Shown here piece after piece: positions 51,495 through 64,000 of a DNA stretch of 64,000 nucleotides (position 1 is the stretch's first letter; every line of letters starts with the position of its first letter). The stretch comes from a bacterium. Its GTDB lineage: Bacteria; Bacteroidota; Ignavibacteria; SZUA-365. The translations under genes and the position numbers were made by a program. The notes below the pieces were generated by a model, which saw nothing but the letters and a program-made list of their open reading frames with translations, was not told the origin of the DNA and ran no database searches. The DNA lies in contig JAHLLD010000001.1 of the NCBI GenBank assembly GCA_020444325.1, forward strand, positions 372,001-436,000. The letters are read 5' to 3'.

Positions 51495-51577
51495 GTTTTT
51501 GCGGATTGCAAAAAATGCGTAGATTTGTAATCTGTGGCACGTGAGATGAAACTTCTCCAGGTCACATCGAGTGGAGG

Positions 51578-51733
51578 AACATAGAATTTCACCTGGAGAG
51601 GTGTCCTCCTTCATCCCGCTTCGCGGGATTTCGGCGGACGCAGCAGGAGTGGAGAAACATAGATTTTCACCTGGAGAGGTGTCCTCCTTCATCCCGCTTC
51701 GCGGGATTTCGGCGGACGCAGCAGGAGTGAGGG
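51578..51733. repeat. Two 78-bp tandem units made of tRNA-Ser 5' end plus hairpin insert
   Basis: Units begin at 51578 and 51656 (AACATAGA...). Each comprises ~20 bp like the tRNA 5' flank, the first 9 bp of the tRNA (GGAGAGGTG), a 40-bp insert (51604-51643; 51682-51721), and the next bases of the tRNA (CAGGAGTG). The insert is a hairpin: ATCCCGC/GCGGGAT with a TTC loop, flanked by TTC on both sides and by TCCTCC/GGCGGA. The third copy of the flank leads into the intact tRNA. Confidence 0.85.
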
Positions 51734-51750
51734 AACATAGATTATCACCT

Positions 51751-51838
<88 letters not shown>

Positions 51839-51850
51839 AAGCAACGCAAC

Positions 51851-51883
51851 CAGGTCAGGTGTAGTCACGCCTGGCCTGTTTTT
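51851..51883 (+). terminator. Terminator after tRNA-Ser
   Basis: CAGGTCAGG and CCTGGCCTG form a 9-bp stem with one G-U pair and a 10-nt loop, followed by TTTTT. It starts 14 bp after the tRNA 3' end. Confidence 0.85.
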
Positions 51884-51934
51884 ATTGGGTCAAATGAACA
51901 CGCGGTACCACGTAGTGTGCCCACATGGCACCAG

Positions 51935-52013
51935 TTTGGGACACTTTTGGGACATTCTATCCGGTACTGTATTTTCTAGAAGTCTTTGCCTATACTGACT
52001 GACCGGGAGTCAG
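51935..52013 (+). promoter_or_regulatory. Candidate promoter/operator for the ATPase-PIN-ligase operon
   Basis: TATACT (51991-51996) is a good -10 box. It overlaps an inverted repeat, CTGACT-N7-AGTCAG (51995-52013), which would cover the transcript start. Upstream, TTTGGGACA occurs twice exactly 11 bp apart (51935, 51946). No good -35 is seen. The operator role is inferred from position. Confidence 0.4.
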
Positions 52014-52077
52014 CTTTCAGAGGAAGCGATTCCTGGATGACATGAAGGGCTTGACGTCAATGACAGCTGAGGAAAGT

Positions 52078-53478
52078 ATGCTGAAACAACTACGAATACG
52101 AAACTTCAAAGGCTGGAAGGACACTGGTACCATTCGCATGGCTCCCATTTCTCTGTTCTTTGGTGCCAACAGCTCGGGAAAATCCAGCATCGGGCAATTC
52201 CTGATGATGCTGAAGCAGACAGTGGAGTCACCAGACAGAAAGGCGGTTTTTTATCCTGGGGGCAAAAACTCGGTAGTTCAACTTGGCTCCTATCAGGAAA
52301 TGGTCTTTCATCGTGACCCGAAAAACAAGATCACCTTCGGCTACCGGTGGTCTTTGCCGGAAACACTGAAGTTCAAGGACCCTTTGTCCGACCAGGTGTT
52401 CTCCGGTAACGAATTGAGTTTCAAAGCAGGCGTTGAGCTCAGCGATGCGACAATGCACTTGGTCCAGGTTTCAAAGTTCGAGTATCGACTACTAAACAAT
52501 GGTGAACAGGCGCTTTCGATCGAGCTATCAAGGAAAACTGAGAAGCATGAATATTCCGCTTCAGCTAAACAATACTCCCTTGTCCGGAAAAAGATGCGTG
52601 CTTGGGCACTCAAGGACATTGTTCGGTTCTATGGATTCCCTGATGAGGTTGTGGCCTATTATCAAAATGCGGATTTCGTTCAGGACCTCAATCTCGCGCA
52701 AGAGAAATTATTCAACTCAATATTCTACCTTGGGCCACTCAGAACAAAAGCTGATAGGCTTTATACCTGGGGTGGCATCACCCCTGAAAGCGTTGGGTTT
52801 TCTGGCGAAAATACTGTCGCGGCCATTTTGGCTGCAAGAGATCGTAAAATCAGTTTCGGGTATCGGAGGCCTGCAAAACCTCTCGAAGAAATAATTGCCC
52901 TCAAGCTCAAGGAAATGGGACTGATCGAAGAATTCAAGGTCAACCCAATTTCCGAACAACGGCAGGAGTACGAGGTAAAGGTTCGCACAAGAGGATCAAA
53001 AGATTGGGTTGATCTTCCAGATGTTGGATTTGGCATATCTCAGGTGCTACCGGTACTGGTGCAGTGTTTTTATGCTCCGGCTGGATCGATCATCCTGATG
53101 GAACAGCCAGAGATTCACTTGCATCCGAATGCACAATCGGCGTTGGCGGATGTGATGATCGACGTCATCAACTCCCGGGAGAACGGATCAGACAGGAATA
53201 TCCAGTTGGTCATCGAAACCCACTCTGAACATTTCCTGCGCCGCCTGCAGCGCCGCATCGCTGAGGATGCAGTCTCGCAGGAAAAAGTATCGGCCTATTT
53301 CGCCAATATCAGTAGGACACCCGCAACCCTAGAGCCGTTGCAAATAGACGTCTTTGGCAACATCCAGAACTGGCCGGAGAACTTTTTCGGCGATGAAATG
53401 GGCGACATAACCGAGCAGGCCAAAGCCGCCATGAAGAAGAGGATGCAAAAAACCGAAGATCCGGAGGCGTCCGCATGA
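52078..53478 (+). CDS. AAA ATPase, OLD/RecF-like with DUF3696-type C-terminus (defence-like)
   Basis: The product has 466 residues. LRIRNFKGWKDTG opens an ABC-type AAA domain; GANSSGKSS (residues 29-37) is the Walker A, ILMEQPEIHLHP (near 340) is Walker B plus the D-loop region, and VIETHSEHFLRRLQRR (near 382) is the switch histidine. The C-terminus (LQIDVFGNIQNWPENFFG) is DUF3696-like. It lacks a TOPRIM nuclease, so nuclease activity is probably the next gene's. I preferred ATG 52078 (AGGAAAG 5 nt before); 52042 and 52060 are alternatives. Its stop overlaps the PIN gene by 4 bp. GC is lower than the backbone. Confidence 0.88.
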   Translation: MLKQLRIRNFKGWKDTGTIRMAPISLFFGANSSGKSSIGQFLMMLKQTVESPDRKAVFYPGGKNSVVQLGSYQEMVFHRDPKNKITFGYRWSLPETLKFKDPLSDQVFSGNELSFKAGVELSDATMHLVQVSKFEYRLLNNGEQALSIELSRKTEKHEYSASAKQYSLVRKKMRAWALKDIVRFYGFPDEVVAYYQNADFVQDLNLAQEKLFNSIFYLGPLRTKADRLYTWGGITPESVGFSGENTVAAILAARDRKISFGYRRPAKPLEEIIALKLKEMGLIEEFKVNPISEQRQEYEVKVRTRGSKDWVDLPDVGFGISQVLPVLVQCFYAPAGSIILMEQPEIHLHPNAQSALADVMIDVINSRENGSDRNIQLVIETHSEHFLRRLQRRIAEDAVSQEKVSAYFANISRTPATLEPLQIDVFGNIQNWPENFFGDEMGDITEQAKAAMKKRMQKTEDPEASA

Positions 53479-54005
53479 GCCTTCCAAAGAAATGCTTGGT
53501 GGATACCAATGTGCCAATAACTGCCAATCTCGCCAGCCAGCCTGACATGGGGTCAGACGTATCCGATGCCTGTGTACTGGCCTGTGTCGAGGCACTTGAG
53601 CATGTCATTAAAAAACATGGCTTGATCATCGATGCGGGAGACGAAATTTTCGATGAGTATCGACAGCAGCTTTCCATGAAGGGACAGCCTGGTATGGGCA
53701 ATGCCTTCATGAAGTGGGTGAATGATCGACGATATAACCCAGAGTATTGCGATAGAGTGACCATAACCAGAAATGGCGATTCATACCAAGAATTCCCTCG
53801 GCATGACGATCTAAACGATTTCGACAGATCAGACCGAAAGTTTATCGCTTCAGCCAACTCCCACGCAGACAAGCCGCCCATTTTGCAGGCCACAGACAGC
53901 AAATGGTGGGGATGGAAGGATGCCCTCGCTGATGTTGGGATTACCGTTCATTTTCTATGCCCGGAGTATGTCGAGGCCAAATATTCTAAGAAGATGGGTA
54001 CATGA
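53475..54005 (+). CDS. PIN-like-domain nuclease
   Basis: The product has 176 residues. KCLVDTNVPITAN is a PIN-type N-terminus with the first catalytic Asp. IIDAGDEIFDEYRQQ holds a conserved acid, DFDRSDRKFIASA the central DxxD-like site, and PILQATDSKWW the last Asp before the C-terminal strand, so the acidic tetrad looks intact. PIN proteins are Mg/Mn-dependent RNases. Both ends are coupled by ATGA overlaps, to the ATPase upstream and the RNA ligase downstream. There is no antitoxin gene, so it is not a VapBC pair. Confidence 0.75.
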   Translation: MSLPKKCLVDTNVPITANLASQPDMGSDVSDACVLACVEALEHVIKKHGLIIDAGDEIFDEYRQQLSMKGQPGMGNAFMKWVNDRRYNPEYCDRVTITRNGDSYQEFPRHDDLNDFDRSDRKFIASANSHADKPPILQATDSKWWGWKDALADVGITVHFLCPEYVEAKYSKKMGT

Positions 54006-54700
54006 AGGAGAGCTTTTTCAAATTTCCTACAACCCCTCATCTGGCGACCTTGCCAGGGGTTGATATCAGGGGTGATAAGGTTTTTACAGAATCAGAACGT
54101 GAAGAATTCCTGACGCATGAGGTGACTGTAGAAGAAAAAGTAGACGGGGCGAACTTGGGGCTATCGTTTGATTCAGATGGGAATTTTCGCGCCCAGAACA
54201 GGGGGGCTTATTTGCATTTACCCAGCTCGGGGCAGTGGGAAAAACTCGACGATTGGTTGAGGCTCAACACCGAAACGCTTTTCGATCATCTTACTGACCG
54301 ATACATCCTGTTTGGTGAGTGGTGTTATGCACAGCATTCAATTTTCTATGGCAGCCTACCTGACTGGTTTCTTGCCTTCGATATTTACGACCGAGAGAAA
54401 CATCTCTTCCTGGCCACGGCACGCCGGGATCAACTATTCGCCGATATGCATATCACTAAAGTTCCATATATTGCACGTGGGAAATTTACTTATCCTGAGG
54501 TTCGAGAACTCTTATCACAATCGAAGTTGACAAATCTACCAGCTGAGGGGATTTATTTACGAGCTGGACACGGTGAATGGCTTGAACGACGTGCCAAACT
54601 AGTGCGTCCCGAATTTATCCAGGCTGTAGAGCAACATTGGTTTCGTTCCGCCATCAGACCAAACTGCCTAAATATCCGATCGAATTTCTTAAACAGTTGA
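54002..54700 (+). CDS. ATP-dependent RNA ligase (Rnl-type)
   Basis: The product has 232 residues. VEEKVDGANLGLSF is the nucleotidyl-transferase motif I with the AMP-accepting Lys. LFGEWCYAQHSI is motif III, WFLAFDIYDR IIIa, AEGIYLRAG IV, and RRAKLVRPEF motif V. The order and spacing match Rnl2-like RNA ligases rather than DNA ligases, and the ligase is compact with little C-terminal domain. It seals 5'-phosphate/3'-OH RNA ends. Its start overlaps the PIN gene stop. Confidence 0.85.
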   Translation: MKESFFKFPTTPHLATLPGVDIRGDKVFTESEREEFLTHEVTVEEKVDGANLGLSFDSDGNFRAQNRGAYLHLPSSGQWEKLDDWLRLNTETLFDHLTDRYILFGEWCYAQHSIFYGSLPDWFLAFDIYDREKHLFLATARRDQLFADMHITKVPYIARGKFTYPEVRELLSQSKLTNLPAEGIYLRAGHGEWLERRAKLVRPEFIQAVEQHWFRSAIRPNCLNIRSNFLNS

Positions 54701-55023
54701 TTGTATCTTTCTTAAGCATGCCGACACACTAACATGGTGAAGCAACAAACTTGGTGGCGAACTCGCGACAGGTCAATAACAACAGGACTGAGCGTGGAGG
54801 AATAGCACCCTCAGTTTTATGGAATAGTCCCAAGGGATCTAAAAAACAGTTTACCAAGATCTTCATCACGTGACCTGCGTCTGATCAATTTCGATCAGTC
54901 ACTTTCTATCAGAAGTTGTTGCGCATATAGGTGGGTATGCTCCAGTAATATCACGTCATGTGTAGCACGCAAAAAAGGCCCGCCCATTGCTGGACGAGCC
55001 TTTTTACTTTGAGTCTTCCTCGA
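54701..55023. other. Intergenic stretch between RNA ligase and integrase
   Basis: No gene is supported here. The region separates two convergent genes. ACTGAG/CTCAGT (about 54791-54819) with a following TTTT could weakly end the defence operon. CTGATC-AATTTC-GATCAG (54881-54898) is a small hairpin. The strong bidirectional terminator lies at 54971-55005. Confidence 0.6.
54971..55005. terminator. Bidirectional terminator between RNA ligase and integrase genes
   Basis: GGCCCGCCCA (54977-54986) pairs with TGGACGAGCC (54991-55000) with two G-U-type pairs, and has A6 on the left and T5 on the right. It can terminate the minus-strand integrase and any long plus-strand transcript. Confidence 0.8.
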
Positions 55024-56136
55024 TCAGTCTGAAATAGGGACAATGCCGACAAGATCCTGAACGACGTGCCCGAGACCTCTTGTTTCCATGTGTATGTAGC
55101 GCATTGTCTGTGCGATGGTAGCATGGCCCATCAACCGGGAGATGTACTGAACTGGAAATCCAAGTTCAGCAAGTTTCGTTGCGAACGTATGCCGAAATAG
55201 GTGGTTCGTCCCATGACCGATACCAGCGCGTTTTGCAACCTTGGAGCATACTGCCAACATCGCCCTCTCGCGAAGCTTACCACCCTGAGGAGCCATGAAT
55301 ACCAAGTCTGATTCTGAGTCCTGTTCACGAATACGTCTCAGCACTCTTAACAGGTCTTCGTTGATCGGGATGAGCCGATAGGCATTTCCTGTCTTCAGAC
55401 TGCCGTCTGGGGACGCCCATATACGCAGATAGGGCATGTCCTCGTCAATGAAGACATCAGTCCATTTCAGTTCTGCGATCTCACTGAAGCGTGCTCCAGT
55501 GTGAAGCATGCCGAAGAAGGCATCCTTATGAGCTGGATGCATCTCAACACGGAAGAACGCACGAAGTTGTTCATCCTTGTAGTACTCAGGCGGCCGCTTT
55601 TGGACTGGCAAGCTCTCGATATGGTCGAAGGGATTGAACTGTAGCGAACGCTTTCTTACTTCACGGTTGAACATCGTTTTGTACTTGGAGATGTACATGT
55701 TGACGGTTTTGGCTTGACGCGTTTTCACCTTCCCTGTCGATCCTTTGGGATCGATACACGGAGCCATGAGCTGCTGCTGTAGAAGGGAGGCGTGAACCTG
55801 AGAGAAATCTGAAAGCAGCGTGATATTGTTCGCGATACAGAATTCCCGGAGGTACTGGAAGATTGGTTGGTAGCGTTTCAGTGTCGACGCCGCGCGTCCG
55901 ACGTGATACTGTTCGAATTCATCGATTACATCCATGATGCGAAGACGGGGCCTTTTCAGGCCCCGCTTCACGCTCTTCTCGTCCTCCCTTTCGAGCAGGA
56001 TCTTCCGCACGAAGGATCGGGCGTCTTCACGATTGATAAATGTTCGCCGGGGCCGCTCTTTGCGGCTGAGACGAATGTCAACGCGGAATCGTCCGTCAGG
56101 CAACTGACGAATGTGCTTGTCAATGATCTTTTTCAT
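55024..56136 (-). CDS. Tyrosine recombinase / integrase
   Basis: The product has 370 residues. The N-terminal arm and SAM-like core-binding region are followed by the catalytic domain: HTGARFSEIAEL (Arg), SLKTGNAYRLI (Lys), HLFRHTFATKLAELGF (HxxR), LMGHATIAQTMRYIH (His/Trp site and nucleophilic Tyr). All catalytic residues are present. It probably integrates the surrounding element. It is ~3.2 kb from tRNA-Ser, with the ATPase-PIN-ligase operon in between, so the operon would be cargo. Confidence 0.92.
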   Translation of the reverse strand: MKKIIDKHIRQLPDGRFRVDIRLSRKERPRRTFINREDARSFVRKILLEREDEKSVKRGLKRPRLRIMDVIDEFEQYHVGRAASTLKRYQPIFQYLREFCIANNITLLSDFSQVHASLLQQQLMAPCIDPKGSTGKVKTRQAKTVNMYISKYKTMFNREVRKRSLQFNPFDHIESLPVQKRPPEYYKDEQLRAFFRVEMHPAHKDAFFGMLHTGARFSEIAELKWTDVFIDEDMPYLRIWASPDGSLKTGNAYRLIPINEDLLRVLRRIREQDSESDLVFMAPQGGKLRERAMLAVCSKVAKRAGIGHGTNHLFRHTFATKLAELGFPVQYISRLMGHATIAQTMRYIHMETRGLGHVVQDLVGIVPISD

Positions 56137-56283
56137 CGCGAATCACTTTGATTGTGGGACAGGACTCGAGGTGATATGACTTCATCAACTTCCTTGCGTA
56201 TGCATGGGCATGGCGGCGGCGGGAGAACAATCGCCTGATCCGACGCCGACCATTCCTTGCACTTACACGGTATTGGGCTTTCA

Positions 56284-56517
56284 TCAATCCACCCCCTCAA
56301 CGACGAGCTGCGCGAGCACCTCGATACGGACTTTGACCAGGTCCCCGAGCCGAACGACGGGGATCCGGCTATCCTCGGTCCTGTCACGGACGAAGGTTTC
56401 CGAAACACCGAGTTCCTTCGCAACCTCGCTGATGGAGAGAAGTGATTTTTGATACGTGGCGAGGAGGCGCTTGCGCACCCCCTCAACCGGGTCTTGATTC
56501 TGCTGGGCTGCCGTCAT
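56284..56517 (-). CDS. Small helix-turn-helix protein (excisionase-like)
   Basis: The product has 77 residues. LLSISEVAKELGVSETFVRDRTEDSRIPVVRLGDLVKVRIEVL looks like a winged-helix DNA-binding domain of the MerR/excisionase kind. It overlaps the gene upstream by 4 bp. It could control integration or copy the role of Xis for the neighbouring integrase. Confidence 0.7.
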   Translation of the reverse strand: MTAAQQNQDPVEGVRKRLLATYQKSLLSISEVAKELGVSETFVRDRTEDSRIPVVRLGDLVKVRIEVLAQLVVEGVD

Positions 56518-56750
56518 TCGATGCCTCCGGCGAGGATCCCAGCGACGTCGTAGACATGCAGGAAACTTTTCCCCATGCGGATTTCCGCACGGATCACATC
56601 GCGGCGAATGCGCGCACGGAGGAATTCCGCACTTGTGTCGCATTCTTGTGCTGCTTCGCGTACGAGCAACTGGTCGCGACCATACCGTTCACGCAAGTAC
56701 TTCACGTAGCGGTCACGAAGTGGGTCGGGGGAAGAAAGAAGAAAAGTCAT
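56514..56750 (-). CDS. Second small DNA-binding-like protein
   Basis: The product has 78 residues. DQLLVREAAQECDTSAEFLRARIRRDVIRAEIRMGKSFLHVYDVAGIL again resembles a helix-turn-helix (excisionase-like) domain. It is coupled to both neighbours by ATGA overlaps. Tandem small HTH genes next to an integrase often form the element's control switch. Confidence 0.65.
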   Translation of the reverse strand: MTFLLSSPDPLRDRYVKYLRERYGRDQLLVREAAQECDTSAEFLRARIRRDVIRAEIRMGKSFLHVYDVAGILAGGIE

Positions 56751-57496
56751 GAGTTCACCTCACGCTTAGTCTTCTTGTTCCCGATTCCAGCGTTTTTCCG
56801 TAAGTCAGCCACAGCGTCCCGAAGGACTTCGATGAATCGTTCGCGATACTCCCGCGGTGATTTAACCACCTTCGTATGGAGCACTTCGTTCACGGCCTTA
56901 ACAAAGCCAAGCAAGGTTGCCTCGTCCGGAATTGCTTCTGGCGTAAGGAGTTGCTCAATAGCGGTATCTGCGCGCTGCTGAACCTTACCCTTCTTGCCAC
57001 AGCTAAGATCGTATTGGCGCTGCGGTAATGCGGAAATGCTATTTTCAATACTCGAGCTATAGCGCTGTAGATAGTTTTGTGATCGCACCAATATTTCAGC
57101 TTCGGACTTGTCGAGTTCCAAACGTTCGATGCGTGATTGCTGAGAATGGGCTCTTGATAGGACTCTCCCACAACGCGTAAATCTACGCAAGAGCTTTGTC
57201 AGCCGTTTCAATTCCAGCTGATCCGCTGTCCGAAGATTCGAGGAAGTAGGACCGGATTGTGGGGTCTCGCTCAAAGCAAGCTTGACCGGATCGGTGTGAA
57301 GTCTGCTACGTATCATTTCACGAAGCGATTCACAATGGGCACGCCCCCACTGTGATTGCTGGTGGAGTTGTTGGATACTTTTGGCATCAACACCGGTGAT
57401 GCGCTCGCACGCGAGTTCGATGCTCTGTACGGCGAGGGTTAGTGACTCAGATGATATGATCTGGTCAGAGTTCGGGTCAATAATTGTGTAATTCAC
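56747..57496 (-). CDS. Unknown protein, first in integrase-side operon
   Basis: The product has 249 residues. I do not recognise it. It is mostly charged helix (LKRLTKLLRRFTRCGRVLSRAHSQQSRIERLELDKSEAEILVRSQNYLQRYSSSIENSI), with likely coiled-coil in the middle and a basic C-terminus. It starts at GTG with CGGAG upstream, and the start codon lies inside a perfect palindrome (57481-57501). It is coupled to the small HTH genes. A DNA-binding or element-maintenance function is possible. Confidence 0.6.
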   Translation of the reverse strand: MNYTIIDPNSDQIISSESLTLAVQSIELACERITGVDAKSIQQLHQQSQWGRAHCESLREMIRSRLHTDPVKLALSETPQSGPTSSNLRTADQLELKRLTKLLRRFTRCGRVLSRAHSQQSRIERLELDKSEAEILVRSQNYLQRYSSSIENSISALPQRQYDLSCGKKGKVQQRADTAIEQLLTPEAIPDEATLLGFVKAVNEVLHTKVVKSPREYRERFIEVLRDAVADLRKNAGIGNKKTKREVNS

Positions 57497-57501
57497 AATT
57501 A
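57481..57501. promoter_or_regulatory. Perfect palindrome over the GTG start
   Basis: TAATTGTG-TAATT-CACAATTA is an 8-5-8 inverted repeat. It covers the start codon and the first bases of the unknown protein gene. It could be a repressor site or an RNA hairpin limiting translation. Confidence 0.5.
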
Positions 57502-57972
57502 CTCCGTATACACTCCCTTGGAGCTAGGGTAATTATTGGATACCCATGGACTGAGGATACATCATTGCTCCAGAAATGAGGTCGATCAATTCGATTACAG
57601 TAGAACGTACGGGGATATGCCTCGGAACGAGGCGAGGGTGGGTATGGCTTCGAAATGTTGGTGATGGAGAACCAACTAGCATTAAAATATTAGTATTATT
57701 CATTTTAATATTTTCATGCATTCGAAGCCTACTATATGGGGGGCTCAGAATGACTGGATAAGTTTAAGAGAGCATTAATAAAATTCTTATGCATTCGAAA
57801 CCTACTATATGGAGGTTTGGAATGACTGTATAAGTTTAAGAGAACATTGGTCGTGGTGGAGGGTTAATGCGAGTCTGGGTTTACGCTGAATCTATTAACT
57901 CGATGGACGGTTGTTGCAGAAAGCCATACCCTTGAATCGAATATTTCCAATCCAAGGTGTTTGTTTTCACAT
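57502..57972. other. Intergenic region with long direct repeat and AT-rich palindrome
   Basis: No gene is supported here. ATTAAAAT (57681) and ATTTTAAT (57702) bracket an AT-rich 13-bp centre. Right after it comes a ~61-bp imperfect direct repeat (57716-57777 and 57789-57849), sharing ATGCATTCGAA, CCTACTATATGG, GAATGACTG and ATAAGTTTAAGAGA. Such a layout (AT-rich stretch plus iterated sequence) can be an origin, a recombinase arm site or a promoter with operators. The IS insertion begins at 57973. Confidence 0.65.
57716..57849. repeat. Imperfect ~61-bp direct repeat, 73 bp apart
   Basis: The two copies share ATGCATTCGAA, CCTACTATATGG, GAATGACTG and ATAAGTTTAAGAGA in order, with scattered substitutions. 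The 73-bp period and near-conserved spacing argue for maintained binding sites rather than chance. Confidence 0.75.
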
Positions 57973-58816
57973 GGTAATACGTACTTAGATCGGACCAATT
58001 ATTGCGCTATTTCCTCAACATGAGTCGACTGTAACAGCTTTAATATCAACGGATAAAGGTCTTCATCGCGGTGGTTGAATCGGTAGCAAAGTTCTGCCAG
58101 ATAAATGGGAAATAACTTTTTCGCCGCACCGCGGTATTGATACAGCCAGTGTTTCGCGCAACTCCAGAACCCCTCGATACCGTTGATATGGTCACGGCCT
58201 TTGGGCTTCCCACGTTCTTTTCGAACGACAACATGTTCTCCACGTACAGACAAAGAAGCATAGACTCGCCATTCATCAGTGAAGTACAGACTTCCTAGAC
58301 TCGTGTTCTCGCTGAGCAGGTCCAGCACATTTTCTTTGTCGCGTGCAGGGATCGGGAAGGCACGCACGGTTCCGTTTCGCTTGAGCAACCCGAAGACGAT
58401 GATCTTCCCGGCAGCTCCCCAGCCTTGTTTCCCTGGCCGATACCCGCCAAAACAGGTCTCATCGCACTCAATCGATCCATTGAGTTGCTCGCTGTCGGCA
58501 TGCTGGTGGATCCAAAGCGTCTTTCTGATTGCGCGATAGAACCGTTCGACGGTACGAACGGAGGCTGGAGTACGAAAGCGGAGACGGTAGGCAGGGACAC
58601 CGAGCACGAAGTACTCAAGCAGCTTCCGCTTCGCAGACTCCTTGATGCGAAAGCTCTGCCAGACCGTGCACAAGGTGTAGCTGCTCCGACAGTAGCGACA
58701 ATGGTACCGTTTGTCACTGAGCTTCCACGCCCAGTGATGCCCACAGTATAGACAAGATCGACGCATGATTTCTCGAATCTAAGCATTTCTCAGGTCCGTT
58801 TTGAGTACGTATTACC
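57973..58816 (-). mobile_element. Intact IS1595-family insertion sequence (844 bp)
   Basis: Terminal inverted repeats of 24 bp (57973-57996 and 58793-58816) match in 21 positions, beginning GGTAATACGTACT at each end. They are flanked by a perfect 8-bp target duplication, TTTCACAT (57965-57972 and 58817-58824), the usual length for this family. One transposase gene fills the element. The perfect duplication indicates a recent insertion. Confidence 0.93.
57999..58766 (-). CDS. IS1595-family (ISXO2-like) transposase
   Basis: The product has 255 residues. The N-terminal CLYCGHHWAWKLSDKRYHCRYC is a zinc ribbon. IECDETCFGGYRPGKQGWGAAGK and YFTDEWRVYASLS supply the first acidic residues of the DDE-type site, and HINGIEGFWSCAKHWLYQYRG matches the ISXO2-like core. 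The frame is complete. Confidence 0.93.
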   Translation of the reverse strand: MRRSCLYCGHHWAWKLSDKRYHCRYCRSSYTLCTVWQSFRIKESAKRKLLEYFVLGVPAYRLRFRTPASVRTVERFYRAIRKTLWIHQHADSEQLNGSIECDETCFGGYRPGKQGWGAAGKIIVFGLLKRNGTVRAFPIPARDKENVLDLLSENTSLGSLYFTDEWRVYASLSVRGEHVVVRKERGKPKGRDHINGIEGFWSCAKHWLYQYRGAAKKLFPIYLAELCYRFNHRDEDLYPLILKLLQSTHVEEIAQ

Positions 58817-58824
58817 TTTCACAT

Positions 58825-59166
58825 TGTTCAATGGCCTTCCACTGAATTGTGGAGCCAATGAATTCCTACGTCAAAGAACAAACCTGCCTCTTTTAGCAGG
58901 CTGATTGCGGAGCCTGTTGCGACCTCTTTATCAGTCGGAGCTGCGCCGTTCTGACAGAAATAACACCGGTGCACATGTTTTGTTACACCTGTTTTAAATT
59001 TCCGCCACATCCATGTCTGCAAACAATGTGCCAACAGGACCCGAAGCGCTATTTGACGGCATTTACTGGCATACTGGCAGGTCACTTCTGTCATTATGTC
59101 GAATTTGACTGCGATTTTGGCATAAGAGATATACGGAAACTGTTTCTAATCAAAATGGAGTCTCTT
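58825..59166. other. Intergenic stretch right of the IS
   Basis: Before the insertion this was joined to the region left of 57965. It contains CCTGC/GCAGG (58889-58907, hairpin) and a well-formed promoter at 59105-59133. A minus-strand frame at 58828-59094 has a CxxC pair but no clear start signal, so I leave it out. Confidence 0.6.
59105..59133 (+). promoter_or_regulatory. Sigma-70-like promoter for the Gam operon
   Basis: TTGACT (59105-59110), a 17-bp spacer and GATATA (59128-59133) match a standard promoter. It lies ~35 bp before the small peptide gene and 125 bp before the Gam-like gene. Confidence 0.55.
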
Positions 59167-59265
59167 ATGCAAACACGCCCATACCTTTTCAAAATCATTA
59201 TCGTCATCGGAGAGGAACTGATACGCAGAATCTTCCGGCGCAGATCGGAGAACGACGATGACTGA
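59167..59265 (+). CDS. Small basic peptide before Gam
   Basis: A 32-residue frame, MQTRPYLFKIIIVIGEELIR, ending in RRIFRRRSENDDD. GGAG lies 7 nt before the ATG, and its 3' end overlaps the Gam-like gene start by 8 bp. The mixed hydrophobic and very basic make-up may be a small regulatory or membrane-active peptide. No homologue known to me. Confidence 0.45.
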   Translation: MQTRPYLFKIIIVIGEELIRRIFRRRSENDDD

Positions 59266-59794
59266 TATGACATCGTTCATTGATGAGCTGATCGAAGAGC
59301 AGGAAAATCATGACGCAGCTCAAACGGAGGCGCACGCGGATTTGCTTCTGCTGGAGATATCCAACCTTCAGCAATCCATCGCGGACACGTTCACCACTGC
59401 CGAGGAAGAGCAAACGCTGATCCAGAAGTGGGCTTTGTCCCGCACGACGAAGATGCAGGACCGCATTGATCGTATCAGCCAGTATCTGGAAACGTTCATG
59501 ACAGAGCGCCATGAATCATCGGGAGAGAAAACACTGAATCTGGCTCACGGGACGCTGCGCATTAGAAAGTCACGCGAAAAAGTCGAGATCACTGACTTGG
59601 GGGAATTCCTGAAACACGCCCGGCCAGAAATGCTGAGAACGCAGCCGGAATCCAGCGCGCCAGATATGGCTGGTATCCGGTCCTGGATGAAGATGTCAGG
59701 CAAAGTCCCGCCTGGCGTTGAGGTCACCCCCGGCAAAAACGAATTTTCCATCAAGATAGAGGAACAGCCGCATGGAACAGACACAAAGGGCTAA
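59258..59794 (+). CDS. Host-nuclease inhibitor Gam-like protein
   Basis: The product has 178 residues. The N-terminal half is coiled-coil. LNLAHGTLRIRKSREKVEITD and GIRSWMKMSGKVPPGVEVTPGKNEFSIKI match the Gam family C-terminal motif (xGEVPPGVxVxPGxxxFxVKI). Mu Gam binds linear DNA ends and blocks RecBCD and exonucleases. GGAG lies 7 nt upstream. It is typical of phages and conjugative elements, and overlaps the next gene by 23 bp. Confidence 0.82.
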   Translation: MTDMTSFIDELIEEQENHDAAQTEAHADLLLLEISNLQQSIADTFTTAEEEQTLIQKWALSRTTKMQDRIDRISQYLETFMTERHESSGEKTLNLAHGTLRIRKSREKVEITDLGEFLKHARPEMLRTQPESSAPDMAGIRSWMKMSGKVPPGVEVTPGKNEFSIKIEEQPHGTDTKG

Positions 59795-60308
59795 ACTCGA
59801 TTTAGCCCTCAATCAACCCCGAACCTTAGTCCTTTTGTTTGATAACCCCCTCACCGGGGAGAACCGTTACGGCCCTTACTACTTGTATGCCTTCGCCGAT
59901 CCCGACACAGGCGAAGAGCTGAGTTTTTTCGCACCATCGGAAGCTCACGACATGCTTGAGCATTACAATGCGGGTGATCGTATCGAGATCACCAAGCACG
60001 CTCGCCAATCGGGAAAGAACGTCATCACGCAGTACATCGTTGTTCCGGCGAACGGCGGCCCGCTCAAGTCCAAGCTCAATGGGAACGGGAAGGCCGCGTC
60101 GCCAGCGCCGCATGCTGAGTCATCTCCGGTGACTCCATCAACCCGCGACAAGCTCTACGATCTGATGCTCCAGTCCTACAAAGACGCGCTTGCAATCCAA
60201 CAAGAAGTCAACTCATTAAATGTCGACAAATGTGCATTAAGCCTCTATATATCAAGGCAAAGAATGCTGACAAGTGGCAACGGCGTTGCCCTGACCTCTC
60301 TCACCTGA
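59772..60308 (+). CDS. Unknown element protein
   Basis: The product has 178 residues. The N-terminal ~95 residues alternate strands and look like an OB-type fold (TLVLLFDNPLTGENRYGPYYLYAFADPDTGEELSFFAP), followed by a Ser/Pro linker and a helical tail. It might be a nucleic-acid-binding partner of Gam. I do not recognise the family. It overlaps Gam, so the pair is co-translated. Confidence 0.55.
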   Translation: MEQTQRAKLDLALNQPRTLVLLFDNPLTGENRYGPYYLYAFADPDTGEELSFFAPSEAHDMLEHYNAGDRIEITKHARQSGKNVITQYIVVPANGGPLKSKLNGNGKAASPAPHAESSPVTPSTRDKLYDLMLQSYKDALAIQQEVNSLNVDKCALSLYISRQRMLTSGNGVALTSLT

Positions 60309-60341
60309 ATTAATTCCCCTACAATATTTACGAGGTAACTC

Positions 60342-61112
60342 ATGACCGACGTTGAACGGCGGTTATCGCCATACCTGTTTCCCGTGGCTGAAACATCCGT
60401 GTACCGTGACGGTGCCGGAGAGAATGGTGTGCCGCAACTCTCAAAAGACTACAAGGCCATCGTCCGCCAGGACAACGGCCAGCTCATCTCGATACAGCGG
60501 AAGACGTACAAGCTCGTTCCGAACTCGGAAGTCATCAAACCACTCATGGATCAGCTGCACAAGCTCGACACGTCCTGGTACGTTGACAGTTCTCATTCAT
60601 TCGTGGATGATGCCCGGATGAGACTGCAGATATCCTTTCCGGAACTCATTGTCCATGACGGACGTAGCGATATCGCACTGAGCCTCTACCTGCATAACAG
60701 CTACGACAGCTCTGAGGGCGTTCGTATGTACTTCGGAGCCATACGAGCAATCTGCAAGAACGGAATGGTCTTTGGCCAGATCCTTAGCAAATTCTATGGC
60801 AAGCACACGACGGGCTTCGATATGGAAAACCTGCAGCGTGAGCTTTCGGCCACAGCGGAAAAACTTCCAGTGATCAAGCACCGCATCGGCACGCTCCTGG
60901 AATCGAAGGTCGACAAAAATCTCCGCATGGAGATCGACCGCCGCCTGGGCAAGCGCGTGACCAAGTACATAGAGCAGCAGGAGCAGGAAACCCAGCGGGC
61001 ACAGAACCAGTGGGCCATGTACAATATTATCACCTACTACGTGAGTCACTTGGTTCGCCAGCGGATGCGTGCAGACTACCAGCTCCGAGCGAGCAAGATT
61101 TTCGGACTGTAG
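60342..61112 (+). CDS. DUF932 phage/plasmid-like protein
   Basis: The product has 256 residues. KDYKAIVRQDNGQLISIQRKTYKLVPNSEVI and the MYFGAIRAICKNGMVFG central segment are characteristic of DUF932 proteins, which are common in plasmids, ICEs and phages and linked to DNA maintenance. GAGGTAACTC lies before the ATG. It follows the Gam operon. Confidence 0.82.
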   Translation: MTDVERRLSPYLFPVAETSVYRDGAGENGVPQLSKDYKAIVRQDNGQLISIQRKTYKLVPNSEVIKPLMDQLHKLDTSWYVDSSHSFVDDARMRLQISFPELIVHDGRSDIALSLYLHNSYDSSEGVRMYFGAIRAICKNGMVFGQILSKFYGKHTTGFDMENLQRELSATAEKLPVIKHRIGTLLESKVDKNLRMEIDRRLGKRVTKYIEQQEQETQRAQNQWAMYNIITYYVSHLVRQRMRADYQLRASKIFGL

Positions 61113-61122
61113 ACAAGAAAAA

Positions 61123-61143
61123 AGGCCTGTGGGGAGCAGGCCT
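61123..61143 (-). terminator. Terminator of the XRE gene
   Basis: AGGCCTG/CAGGCCT form a 7-bp stem, with TTTTTTCT on the minus strand. It overlaps the stop codon of the XRE gene and lies just after the DUF932 stop. Confidence 0.75.
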
Positions 61144-61402
61144 ACTTCATTGAAAGTGCTTTTTCAAATTCCCGAACAAAACTGACGAAGTCTTTTCCGA
61201 GTGCGGACAGGATTGACCGCAGTTCCACGACATCCACGCGCCGTATGCCGCGCTCGATCTTGGAAAGATACGTCTGATCCTTCCCGATACGTTTCGCCAG
61301 CTCCACCTGCGTCATGTTTTTCTTCTGGCGCAGCTCAATGAGCATATCCAGCAAAATGCTGTAATCCCTGCGATGTATCGATTTCGTTTGTGCGTCTTCC
61401 AT
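61142..61402 (-). CDS. XRE-family transcriptional regulator
   Basis: The product has 86 residues. LRQKKNMTQVELAKRIGKDQTYLSKIERGIRRVDVVELRSILSALG is a classic helix-turn-helix of the phage Cro/C1 type. The start at 61402 follows the palindromic operator at 61433-61449. It is divergent from the protease gene, which it probably regulates. Confidence 0.9.
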   Translation of the reverse strand: MEDAQTKSIHRRDYSILLDMLIELRQKKNMTQVELAKRIGKDQTYLSKIERGIRRVDVVELRSILSALGKDFVSFVREFEKALSMK

Positions 61403-61422
61403 ACGTGGAAAAGGTAGACGCG

Positions 61423-61454
61423 TTGCATGCAGTATGCGAAAATCGCATATTAAT
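61423..61454 (+). promoter_or_regulatory. Shared promoter/operator of XRE regulator and protease
   Basis: TATGCGA-AAA-TCGCATA is a perfect 7-3-7 palindrome at 61433-61449. TTGCAT (61423) and CATATT (61446) with 17 bp between make a possible protease promoter over it. The operator lies in the 86-bp gap between the two divergent genes. Confidence 0.6.
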
Positions 61455-61488
61455 GTGTCCATCATTCTTCTCGCATAAAGGAGGTGTT

Positions 61489-62907
61489 ATGCTTCGTTCT
61501 CTGTTTTTCTTTGCGCTGTGCGGCTTGATCGCAGTACCTGCACACGCTCAGCTCGATGAACACTCGATTGTCAAGATTTTCGTCACATCGACGCCGCCTA
61601 ATCCATATCGGCCCTGGGCACCAAGCAATCCCACGGAGGCTACCGGGACCGGTTTCATCATTGAAGGCAACCGCATCATCACGAACGCGCATGTTGTCGC
61701 GTACAGTACCTTTGTTATGGTGCGCCGGGGCGGTGACTCGAAGAAATATGTCGCACACCCGGAATATGTTTGTCATCAGGCTGACCTGGCCGTGCTTACA
61801 GTAGAAGACCAACAGTTTTTTGAAGGTGTTCCGCCGCTATCGATCGGCGAAAGTCCGTCGACGCAGGATCAGGTTACTGTTGTAGGATATCCTACGGGTG
61901 GTGATGAGCTTTCCTGGACATCCGGCATCATATCCCGTATTGAAGTCAATGCCTACGCCCACTCATGGGAGTCGCTACTCACCATCCAAGTTGATGCAGC
62001 AATCAATCCAGGTAACAGCGGTGGTCCTGCCATTGTCGATGGAAAAGTTGTGGGCGTATCGATGATGACCCGCACCGATGCAGACGGGGTGAGTTACATC
62101 ATACCCCCGGAGATCATCGACCATTTCCTCGCAGATATTGAGGACGGCAGAGTCGATGGCTATCCGCTCGCAGGATTTACCTATGTCGCGTTGGAAAATC
62201 CCGGTCTCCGAAAGCAATTTGGCCTCGATCCTGAAGGAGAGACCGGCGTCTTCATCCGGGATGCTTCCTTCCCGCCAAGTGGCAATCAGGTTTTTCAAAA
62301 AGGCGATATTGTCCTGGCGGTGGATAACGTGCCGGTGCATTCGAATGGAAAGATCCGTAATGGGCTGAACATGCTCGACCTTTCCTATCTTGTTCGTCGG
62401 AAGCAAGTAGGAGAAATGGTACCATTCAGTATCATGCGGGATGGGAAAACTATGACCGTCGACTGGAAGGCCGAATATGTTCCTGAGCTTGTCCCATACC
62501 GCAGCTACAGCCGGGTTACGCCATATTATCTGTTCGGTGGTGTGTTGTTTACGATACTCACCGGCGATGTCATCTACGCGGACACCGAGGATTGGCCGGA
62601 TCCGGAGCTCTACTACTTCACGACACGGCACCGAAGGGAAACGCGGAAGCAGATCATTTTCGTGCATTCCATTTTCCAGCACGAACAGACACGTGGAATG
62701 ATAGGGCAGGTACATATCGTCAGCACGATCGATGGCAAGAGTGTGGCAAGCTTCAAGGATCTTGTTGAGATGCTGGACAAGGCAGACGGTACCGTGAGCA
62801 TCGTTTGCGATTCTGGCCTTACGCTAAAGCTCGATGCCGATGAAGCGCGGAGCATTGAACCCGATATCATGGAGACCTATGGTATTCCGAAGAAAAAAGT
62901 CCTCTGA
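61489..62907 (+). CDS. Exported Deg/HtrA-like serine protease
   Basis: The product has 472 residues. MLRSLFFFALCGLIAVPAHAQ is a signal peptide. ITNAHVV (His), QADLAVL (Asp) and INPGNSGGPAI (Ser) form the trypsin-like triad. A PDZ-like region (~260-340; VFIRDASFPPSGNQVFQKGDIVLAVDNVPVHS) follows, with a second degenerate one near the C-terminus. It resembles the Deg proteases with chloroplast-type C-terminal extensions. AAAGGAGGTG is a strong ribosome site. In a mobile region such a protease is unusual. Confidence 0.88.
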   Translation: MLRSLFFFALCGLIAVPAHAQLDEHSIVKIFVTSTPPNPYRPWAPSNPTEATGTGFIIEGNRIITNAHVVAYSTFVMVRRGGDSKKYVAHPEYVCHQADLAVLTVEDQQFFEGVPPLSIGESPSTQDQVTVVGYPTGGDELSWTSGIISRIEVNAYAHSWESLLTIQVDAAINPGNSGGPAIVDGKVVGVSMMTRTDADGVSYIIPPEIIDHFLADIEDGRVDGYPLAGFTYVALENPGLRKQFGLDPEGETGVFIRDASFPPSGNQVFQKGDIVLAVDNVPVHSNGKIRNGLNMLDLSYLVRRKQVGEMVPFSIMRDGKTMTVDWKAEYVPELVPYRSYSRVTPYYLFGGVLFTILTGDVIYADTEDWPDPELYYFTTRHRRETRKQIIFVHSIFQHEQTRGMIGQVHIVSTIDGKSVASFKDLVEMLDKADGTVSIVCDSGLTLKLDADEARSIEPDIMETYGIPKKKVL

Positions 62908-63178
62908 GCCAGATCCGCGATTGGATGAACCGTACTGGCCTGAGTGCTGTCCAGAGTGCGGATCCGACAAACTGGAGAAAGTCGTGTTCGGCATACCGAC
63001 TGAGAATGAAGAGCTTCTGGGTAAACGTCGTATGGCCTGCTTTCTCCCATGCGATGCTGATATCATCAACCTGCCACACTGGTATTGCCGCAAGTGCAAG
63101 CATGGATGGCAGGCAAAGGATGATTTCCGCTGCTATGAATGGAAAGAATGGTTGAAAGCCTTCCGCCACCTTCCTTGA
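62879..63178 (+). CDS. Zinc-ribbon protein
   Basis: The product has 99 residues. WPECCPECGSDKLEK and WYCRKCKHGWQ supply two CxxC-type pairs for one zinc. GGAG lies 5 nt before the ATG, and the gene overlaps the protease stop by 29 bp, so the two are co-translated. Function unknown. Confidence 0.65.
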   Translation: MVFRRKKSSEPDPRLDEPYWPECCPECGSDKLEKVVFGIPTENEELLGKRRMACFLPCDADIINLPHWYCRKCKHGWQAKDDFRCYEWKEWLKAFRHLP

Positions 63179-63199
63179 CCTACGACACATCTATCACAG

Positions 63200-63231
63200 A
63201 CGGCCTTGTCCATTCGGATGAGGCCGTTTTT
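63200..63231 (+). terminator. Terminator of the protease/zinc-ribbon transcript
   Basis: ACGGCCT/AGGCCGT, with an inner GTCC/GGAT helix and an ATTC loop, is followed by TTTT. It lies after the zinc-ribbon gene and before the RadC-like gene. Confidence 0.8.
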
Positions 63232-63246
63232 CATATGGAGGCAGTA

Positions 63247-63837
63247 ATGCAGTACGAGCACTGCACGACCGAACAGCTCGTGCAAGAAATCATCGGCAGA
63301 CGCATTCATGATCTGCCTCACTTGCGAGACATCAAACGAAATCCTGACTTACTACTAACCATTGATGGCATTGGCGCTGTATCTGCAAAACGGATACGTG
63401 CTGCGCTTGAGCTTGGAATCCGGTATGCAACTGAGCCGAGTACAGATAAACCAGTGATAACAGGTCCTGAGGATGTCGTGGAGATTTACGGCCCCAGGCT
63501 TCGCGACCTCGACCACGAACGGTTTTACGTCTTGCTCATGGATAACGGCGGCAGGATCACGTACGAACACTTGGTATCGCAAGGCATAGCGAATGCGAGT
63601 CTTGTGCATCCAAGAGAAGTATTTCGGGAAGCCATACGACGTTCTGCATCGAACATGATACTACTTCACAACCATCCGAGTGCAGTTCGTGAGGCTAGTC
63701 AAGAAGATTTTCTCATCACATCTCAGCTTGTCGAAGCTGGAAAAATCATTGACATACAGATTCACGATCACATAATCATCGCCGGTCATTCCTACGTGAG
63801 TTTTGCGGAGAATGGCTGGCTGGAGGCATCATCATGA
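63247..63837 (+). CDS. RadC-like JAMM-domain protein
   Basis: The product has 196 residues. A helix-hairpin-helix-like part (LLTIDGIGAVSAKRIRAALELG) precedes the JAMM/MPN core: ILLHNHPSAVREASQED is the H-x-H-(x10)-D metal site. GGAGG lies 5-6 nt before the ATG at 63247; longer frames start inside the previous gene. RadC-like proteins are common in mobile elements, but their function is debated. Confidence 0.88.
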   Translation: MQYEHCTTEQLVQEIIGRRIHDLPHLRDIKRNPDLLLTIDGIGAVSAKRIRAALELGIRYATEPSTDKPVITGPEDVVEIYGPRLRDLDHERFYVLLMDNGGRITYEHLVSQGIANASLVHPREVFREAIRRSASNMILLHNHPSAVREASQEDFLITSQLVEAGKIIDIQIHDHIIIAGHSYVSFAENGWLEASS

Positions 63838-64000
63838 AGAAAACAAATCTCGCCTTGCTGATCGCTGCAGGGCTGCTCGCAATCATCAACCTGATGAATG
63901 GCCAGACTGTTACCCAGGACAGCTGCTTCTACCGCAATGGCAGGGTTGCAACGCTGATGACCTACAAAGACAGTAAGCCGGTGCTTCGTGAAGCATTTTA
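63834..64000 (+). CDS. Exported protein, 3' partial
   Basis: The gene overlaps the RadC-like stop by 4 bp (ATGA) and runs off the window. MKKTNLALLIAAGLLAIINLMNGQ is a signal-peptide-like start, followed by TVTQDSCFYRNGRVATLMTYKD. Nothing further can be said. Confidence 0.6.
   Translation, partial: MKKTNLALLIAAGLLAIINLMNGQTVTQDSCFYRNGRVATLMTYKDSKPVLREAF

Follow-up and report, generated by a model that had tools for sequence, protein, structure and literature searches.

Hairpin-broken tRNA copies around tRNA genes of Ignavibacteria, with a tandem 5' array in front of tRNA-Ser(GGA)

Chromosomal tRNA genes are usually viewed as stable docking sites for islands, which use their 3' ends. In E. 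coli, tyrT is followed by tandem repeats, the RtT family of Rfam, in which part of the tRNA, from its 3' end, is included. The array described here likewise consists of tandem repeats that lie by a tRNA gene and contain a tRNA piece, but it involves the 5' end, is located upstream and carries an inserted hairpin. Fungal mitochondria harbor double-hairpin elements, as well as gene-restoring homing inserts that leave a displaced gene piece; tiny hairpins and the combination of endonuclease insertion with a displaced gene piece are shared with our case, whereas the fungal elements are organellar and have other sequences.

REP elements, associated with RAYT transposases, are also short, dispersed extragenic palindromes that are partly tandem, and their GTAG and CGTC super-families are defined by an end tag (PMC3733652). 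Our hairpin differs from them in lacking a GTAG or CGTC tag, in not tracking Y1 transposase genes and in being located inside broken tRNA copies. The SegB endonuclease of T-even phages, a GIY-YIG enzyme, cuts within tRNA genes at the T-loop motif RAWTSGAAC and drives tandem tRNA-segB amplification (PMC13096335). As in that system, small GIY-YIG genes lie here by tRNA genes, tandem tRNA-endonuclease amplification occurs, and breakpoints recur at the T-loop position, where cutting in Ignavibacteria is putative. Unlike SegB, the genes of our study reside in bacterial chromosomes, just 3' of a single tRNA or tmRNA, and the displaced pieces are hairpin-broken. Known ingredients, namely GIY-YIG genes at tRNA genes and dispersed palindromes, thus appear in a new combination. 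The open-licence papers searched describe neither hairpin-broken tRNA copies nor tRNA-adjacent GIY-YIG genes of bacterial chromosomes; such scarring is real, recurrent and, within the open literature searched, undescribed, and the locus presented below is one good 5' example of it.

The array in front of tRNA-Ser(GGA)

We analyzed a stretch of 64,000 nucleotides, hereafter the window, from a genome of the class Ignavibacteria (G000). The original prediction stated that two copies of the tRNA-Ser 5' end, each split by a hairpin, lie upstream of the gene, and that the flank and the tRNA 5' end had been copied in tandem. The features of this region, in window coordinates, are the following:

51496-51527, + strand: putative promoter of Bacteroidota type, TTTTTG-N18-TAGATTTG, proposed from sequence only
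51551-51562, + strand: ACTTCTCCAGGT, complement of the tRNA 5' end and of both copies (inverted repeats I1-I3)
51569-51646, + strand: unit 1, 78 bp, comprising the flank, GGAGAGGTG, the hairpin and the start of CAGGAGTGG
51595-51603, 51673-51681 and 51751-51759: GGAGAGGTG, the last being the tRNA start
51604-51643, + strand: hairpin, copy 1 (R1 model match 51603-51644, E 8.8e-11)
51644-51652 and 51760-51768: CAGGAGTGG
51647-51724, + strand: unit 2, 78 bp, 97% identical to unit 1
51682-51721, + strand: hairpin, copy 2, identical to copy 1 (R1 model match 51681-51722)
51722-51730: CAGGAGTGA in place of CAGGAGTGG, in the middle copy
51725-51750, + strand: third copy of the flank, abutting tRNA-Ser(GGA) (repeat family D2)
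51751-51838, + strand: intact tRNA-Ser(GGA) (ARAGORN; Rfam RF00005, 53.9 bits)

Both statements hold. Each unit is made of the flank and tRNA nt 1-18, with a 40-nt hairpin inserted after nt 9, and the flank with GGAGAGGTG is present a third time at 51725-51759, in tRNA-Ser itself; a segment of the leader with the first 9-18 nt of the tRNA is duplicated in tandem upstream of the intact gene. The hairpin is nested, with a folding energy of -16.8 kcal/mol (z -2.9), and folding also predicts that ACTTCTCCAGGT pairs with the first copy. An Rfam scan of the array returned no family above its gathering score, RtT included, except tRNA-Ser itself. Because the putative promoter is upstream of the entire array, both units would belong to the pre-tRNA leader, as part of which the array should be transcribed. 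A TAnnTTTG box also lies 5' of the arrays at tRNA-Ser in three relatives (G002, G003 and G009) and at tRNA-Asp. Since CAGGAGTGG(A) is likewise present in the tRNA-Ser(CGA) leader of G003, which belongs to the same genus as the window organism, the 9-nt CAGGAGTGG piece could be native leader instead of copied tRNA.

The same locus was compared in relatives. In G002, G003 and G009 the order is GGAGAGGTG, hairpin, leader and tRNA, so the arrangement is not the one-off duplication that had been named as the outcome able to refute the original prediction. The hairpins at these three loci are quite unlike that of the window in sequence, and in every species the leftmost copy consists of the flank and the tRNA end and not of a hairpin. 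GGAGAGGTG is perfect in four species despite the divergence of hairpins and flanks, so selection could act on it; old, neutral copies would not account for this conservation. At the tRNA-Ser locus of G006 there is a hairpin but no clear tRNA copy, and the upstream regions in G001, G005, G008 and G010 contain neither. A similar hairpin precedes tRNA-Ser(CGA) of the window genome, with a decayed one in G003. Outside the Ignavibacteria, a 5' copy with a hairpin before tRNA-Ser was found in single genomes under five labels: candidate division WS2, Bacteroidales, Parvularculaceae, Omnitrophota and the unclassified bacterium B46_G16. Many matches in Dehalococcoidia were rejected as broken tRNA copies, being adjoining tRNA-Ser genes: at L041, L044 and most other Dehalococcoidia loci, tRNA-Ser(CGA) and tRNA-Ser(GGA) follow each other head to tail, almost without a spacer.

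Dispersed hairpins and broken copies at other tRNA genes

The hairpin is not confined to this locus. A covariance model trained on eleven examples detected at least 38 copies in the window genome, and genera g1 and g3 yielded dozens; with up to 150 candidates scored per genome, these counts are lower bounds, and on the same scoring no copy was detected in G005, G007 and G008. Among 53 distinct copies, in an alignment that had been fitted to the covariance model, the two stems covary strongly, with a score of 0.357 vs 0.131 after shuffling and 85 vs 32 two-sided pair changes. The hairpin shares its numerous extragenic copies and its conserved paired structure with REP-like dispersed palindromes in general. 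Tandem arrays of hairpin plus flank also occur away from tRNA genes, one of them with a 79-bp period (G000:C14:146916), and duplicated flanks accompany such arrays at L154 617-737, L155 512-611, L161 518-606 and L172 384-425.

In the window genome, the sequence 5' of each of the 45 tRNA genes was read, and the survey was extended to the tRNA genes found in G032 and G041, which belong to another family, for a total of 132 genes in three Ignavibacteria genomes. A copy of the gene's own 5' part lies upstream of 14 of the 132, and a copy of its own 3' part lies downstream of about a dozen. As a control, the 5' 40 nt of each of the 132 genes was compared with sequence upstream of other tRNA genes; the longest match was 9 nt, so the match in the window array is far beyond chance. 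Most of the own-end copies are hairpin-broken, at the D arm, the anticodon arm or the T loop. Perfect hairpins reach 14.7 per kb in the spare copies, the borders of which were set by hand, vs 0.4-1.9 in the background and 3.3 in real tRNAs.

A second locus of the window genome carries pieces on both sides of the gene:

G000:C4:251145-251830 (L123), - strand: tRNA-Asp locus with three broken 5' copies, a GIY-YIG gene and a 3' piece

Here three tandem 87-bp units lie upstream of the tRNA, all 3' of the promoter. Each consists of tRNA nt 1-31, a 15-nt hairpin, TCCCGCACAGCGGGA, that replaces the anticodon arm, nt 45-53 and the flank, and the same 15-nt hairpin is found in the displaced 3' piece. 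The tRNA-Asp of G002 has one comparable unit with a different hairpin. The 3' pieces sit behind a terminator. Simple hairpin insertion with target-site duplication was considered and rejected: the flank repeats of the window fit it, but the tRNA-Asp copies of G041 require that tRNA sequence was duplicated beyond the insertion point.

GIY-YIG genes and the T-loop breakpoint

In G000, G032 and G041, nine of 17 small GIY-YIG genes lie on the same strand as a tRNA and begin within 60 bp 3' of it (binomial 4e-24); another three of the 17 adjoin tmRNA. Their identity is supported by PF01541 (E 5e-17). The order is tRNA, endonuclease gene and a displaced 3' piece of that tRNA, which is usually hairpin-broken; no displaced 3' piece was found behind tmRNA genes. 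In three genomes GIY-YIG genes come after the tmRNA, and hairpins lie in between (L281 2095-2966, L282 9027-9824, L283 2611-3736), and in G041 the tmRNA-GIY-YIG locus contains two tandem copies.

The most elaborate case is tRNA-Ser(GGA) of G008, a member of the same family as the window organism, where the tRNA is followed by three GIY-YIG genes that alternate with hairpin-broken tRNA-Ser copies:

L276 3197-4693: tRNA-Ser(GGA) of G008 with three GIY-YIG genes
L276 15319-15817: second tRNA-Ser locus of G008

At the second locus, one 15-nt hairpin stands on each side of the endonuclease gene. GIY-YIG genes beside tRNA genes are thus a feature of the class (nine of 17, in three genomes) but not of the window locus: there is none on the window contig C1 or among the window ORFs, nor near tRNA-Ser(GGA) in G001, G002, G003, G006 and G009 within the stretches read. 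A GIY-YIG gene accompanies only four of the 14 tRNAs with 5' copies (overlap p 0.0075).

The break in displaced 3' pieces often falls exactly in the T loop, at GTTC/GAATC (the slash marks the breakpoint), and this recurs in several tRNAs. RAWTSGAAC is the reverse complement of GTTCSAWTY, and the breakpoint matches this reverse complement of the SegB motif. A search for insertions at this position in 391 genomes of the class Ignavibacteria gave 41 matches in 31 genomes; the reversed pattern, used as a control on the same 391 genomes, gave none. By an eye count from the list, about 29 precise double mini-hairpins, mostly of 22 nt, are present in 18 genomes. Twelve insertion loci were opened, of which nine have the double hairpin; seven of these nine lie just 3' of an intact tRNA (ARAGORN), and at one of the seven a GIY-YIG gene stands between the tRNA and the double hairpin. 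The 22-nt element consists of two 11-nt hairpins, the second of which covaries, for example at L295, L296, L297 and L300. The breakpoints of the window array are at tRNA nt 9 and 18, not in the T loop. Recombination at the tRNA, which had been proposed for the window gene, is upheld in general terms by the own 5' and 3' copies around multiple tRNA genes and by the T-loop breakpoints.

Origin of the array and the neighboring island

The hairpin-broken pieces around Ignavibacteria tRNA genes resemble scars left by recurrent breakage and repair of DNA, and we cautiously favor the reading that the window array is one such scar, transcribed and formed when a break at its tRNA gene was repaired, with the units as broken spare copies that hold hairpins within them. 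A tRNA gene would be cut and then repaired with partial duplication, which would give rise to the spare copies. The enzyme that usually cuts would be a SegB-like GIY-YIG endonuclease of small size; its gene would settle directly 3' of tRNA or tmRNA genes, with a displaced tRNA piece left behind it. Survival would require that a cell retain one intact tRNA, and spare copies with the cutting site would persist only once a hairpin splits that site, or would simply decay. The intact tRNA might be spared if the inserted endonuclease gene parts it from a downstream flank needed for recognition, which is a guess. For the window array, the part of a GIY-YIG enzyme is something that we infer, as no such gene lies near tRNA-Ser(GGA) now, and the array itself is most likely functionless. 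On the scar reading, tRNA genes of these bacteria appear to be repeatedly attacked and repaired, with broken pieces on both sides, the 5' ones probably transcribed, and genome annotation should reckon with pseudo-tRNA pieces overlooked by tRNA finders. If the GIY-YIG link is true, tRNA-gene cutting of the SegB type would extend from phages to bacterial chromosomes, and a testable origin would be at hand for very small mobile palindromes, namely the precise double-hairpin insertions at a single T-loop position in many genera.

A broader version of the endonuclease account, which we put forward only tentatively and consider rather unlikely, is a two-part chromosomal selfish system, in which GIY-YIG endonucleases target tRNA genes and structure-recognized hairpins immunize the displaced copies against recutting. 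The hairpins would enter the tRNA arms of displaced copies, notably the T loop at GTTC/GAATC, and tRNA genes would end up fenced by their own hairpin-broken pieces. The lack of a GIY-YIG gene on C1, the breakpoints at nt 9 and 18 and the overlap of only four in 14 mean, conversely, that plain hairpin-linked slippage could explain the array: a mobile hairpin in the tRNA leader would have induced replication slippage that reached into the tRNA by chance, and the GIY-YIG genes would be unrelated to it. The off-tRNA arrays of hairpin plus flank, with their similar period of 79 bp, and the lack of a GIY-YIG gene near tRNA-Ser(GGA) speak for this explanation, which we nonetheless judge to have a minor chance of being correct: the leftmost copy is flank plus tRNA end in every species, 5' and 3' tRNA pieces and GIY-YIG genes concentrate at tRNA and tmRNA genes, and the T-loop breakpoints are recurrent. 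Movement of the hairpin as a REP element by a RAYT (TnpA_REP) transposase, with the arrays as BIME-like REP clusters, would account for extragenic palindromes of 20-40 bp that are multi-copy and sometimes tandem. It is very improbable, given that the aligned consensus, GTCCGCC-TTC-...-TAC-GGCGGGnCAAG, has no unpaired GTAG or CGTC tag at its end (the criterion of PMC3733652) and that hairpin abundance does not track Y1_Tnp genes across genomes; G011 has at least 33 hairpins and no Y1_Tnp, and G005 has no hairpins and five Y1_Tnp.

An RNA-level function, or a conflict with 5' processing, had also been suggested for the array. The 5' copies in the pre-tRNA leader would then be decoys that tune tRNA-Ser maturation, by binding the antisense segment or by competing for the 3' acceptor strand, and their placement between promoter and tRNA and the perfect retention of GGAGAGGTG in four species would suit such a device. 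For the window, native acceptor pairing is predicted at 0.45 with both units in place and at 0.0002 after their deletion in silico, which leaves ACTTCTCCAGGT to pair with the 5' end of the tRNA proper. The predicted effect is reversed at tRNA-Ser of G003 (0.35 with copies, 0.99 without) and at tRNA-Asp of G000 (0.13 with copies, 0.96 without), and is small in G002. Since these effects run in opposite directions between loci, with no consistent outcome for the acceptor stem, we claim no RNA function, and a processing conflict is likewise not supported; the majority of tRNA genes have no copies, and the 3' pieces lie on the opposite side, behind the terminator, which makes a device of this kind improbable.

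The mobile island next to the 5' array is a separate matter. The original prediction had linked the two, a link that is not sustained, as the island uses the tRNA 3' end and such arrays are present at many tRNA genes. The features of the island are:

51811-51838, + strand: 3' 28 nt of tRNA-Ser(GGA), the attachment site of the island, repeated at G000:C1:457705-457732
55027-56136, - strand: phage-type integrase (PF00589), belonging to the island and not to the array

The second 28-nt copy is about 34 kb downstream of tRNA-Ser(GGA); a duplicated tRNA end combined with an integrase characterizes this 3' end and its 34-kb island, not the 5' array. The island, which spans 51838-64000 of the window and continues to G000:C1:457732, also encodes an AAA/DUF3696 ATPase, an RNA ligase, a Mu Gam-like protein and an IS1595-type transposase.
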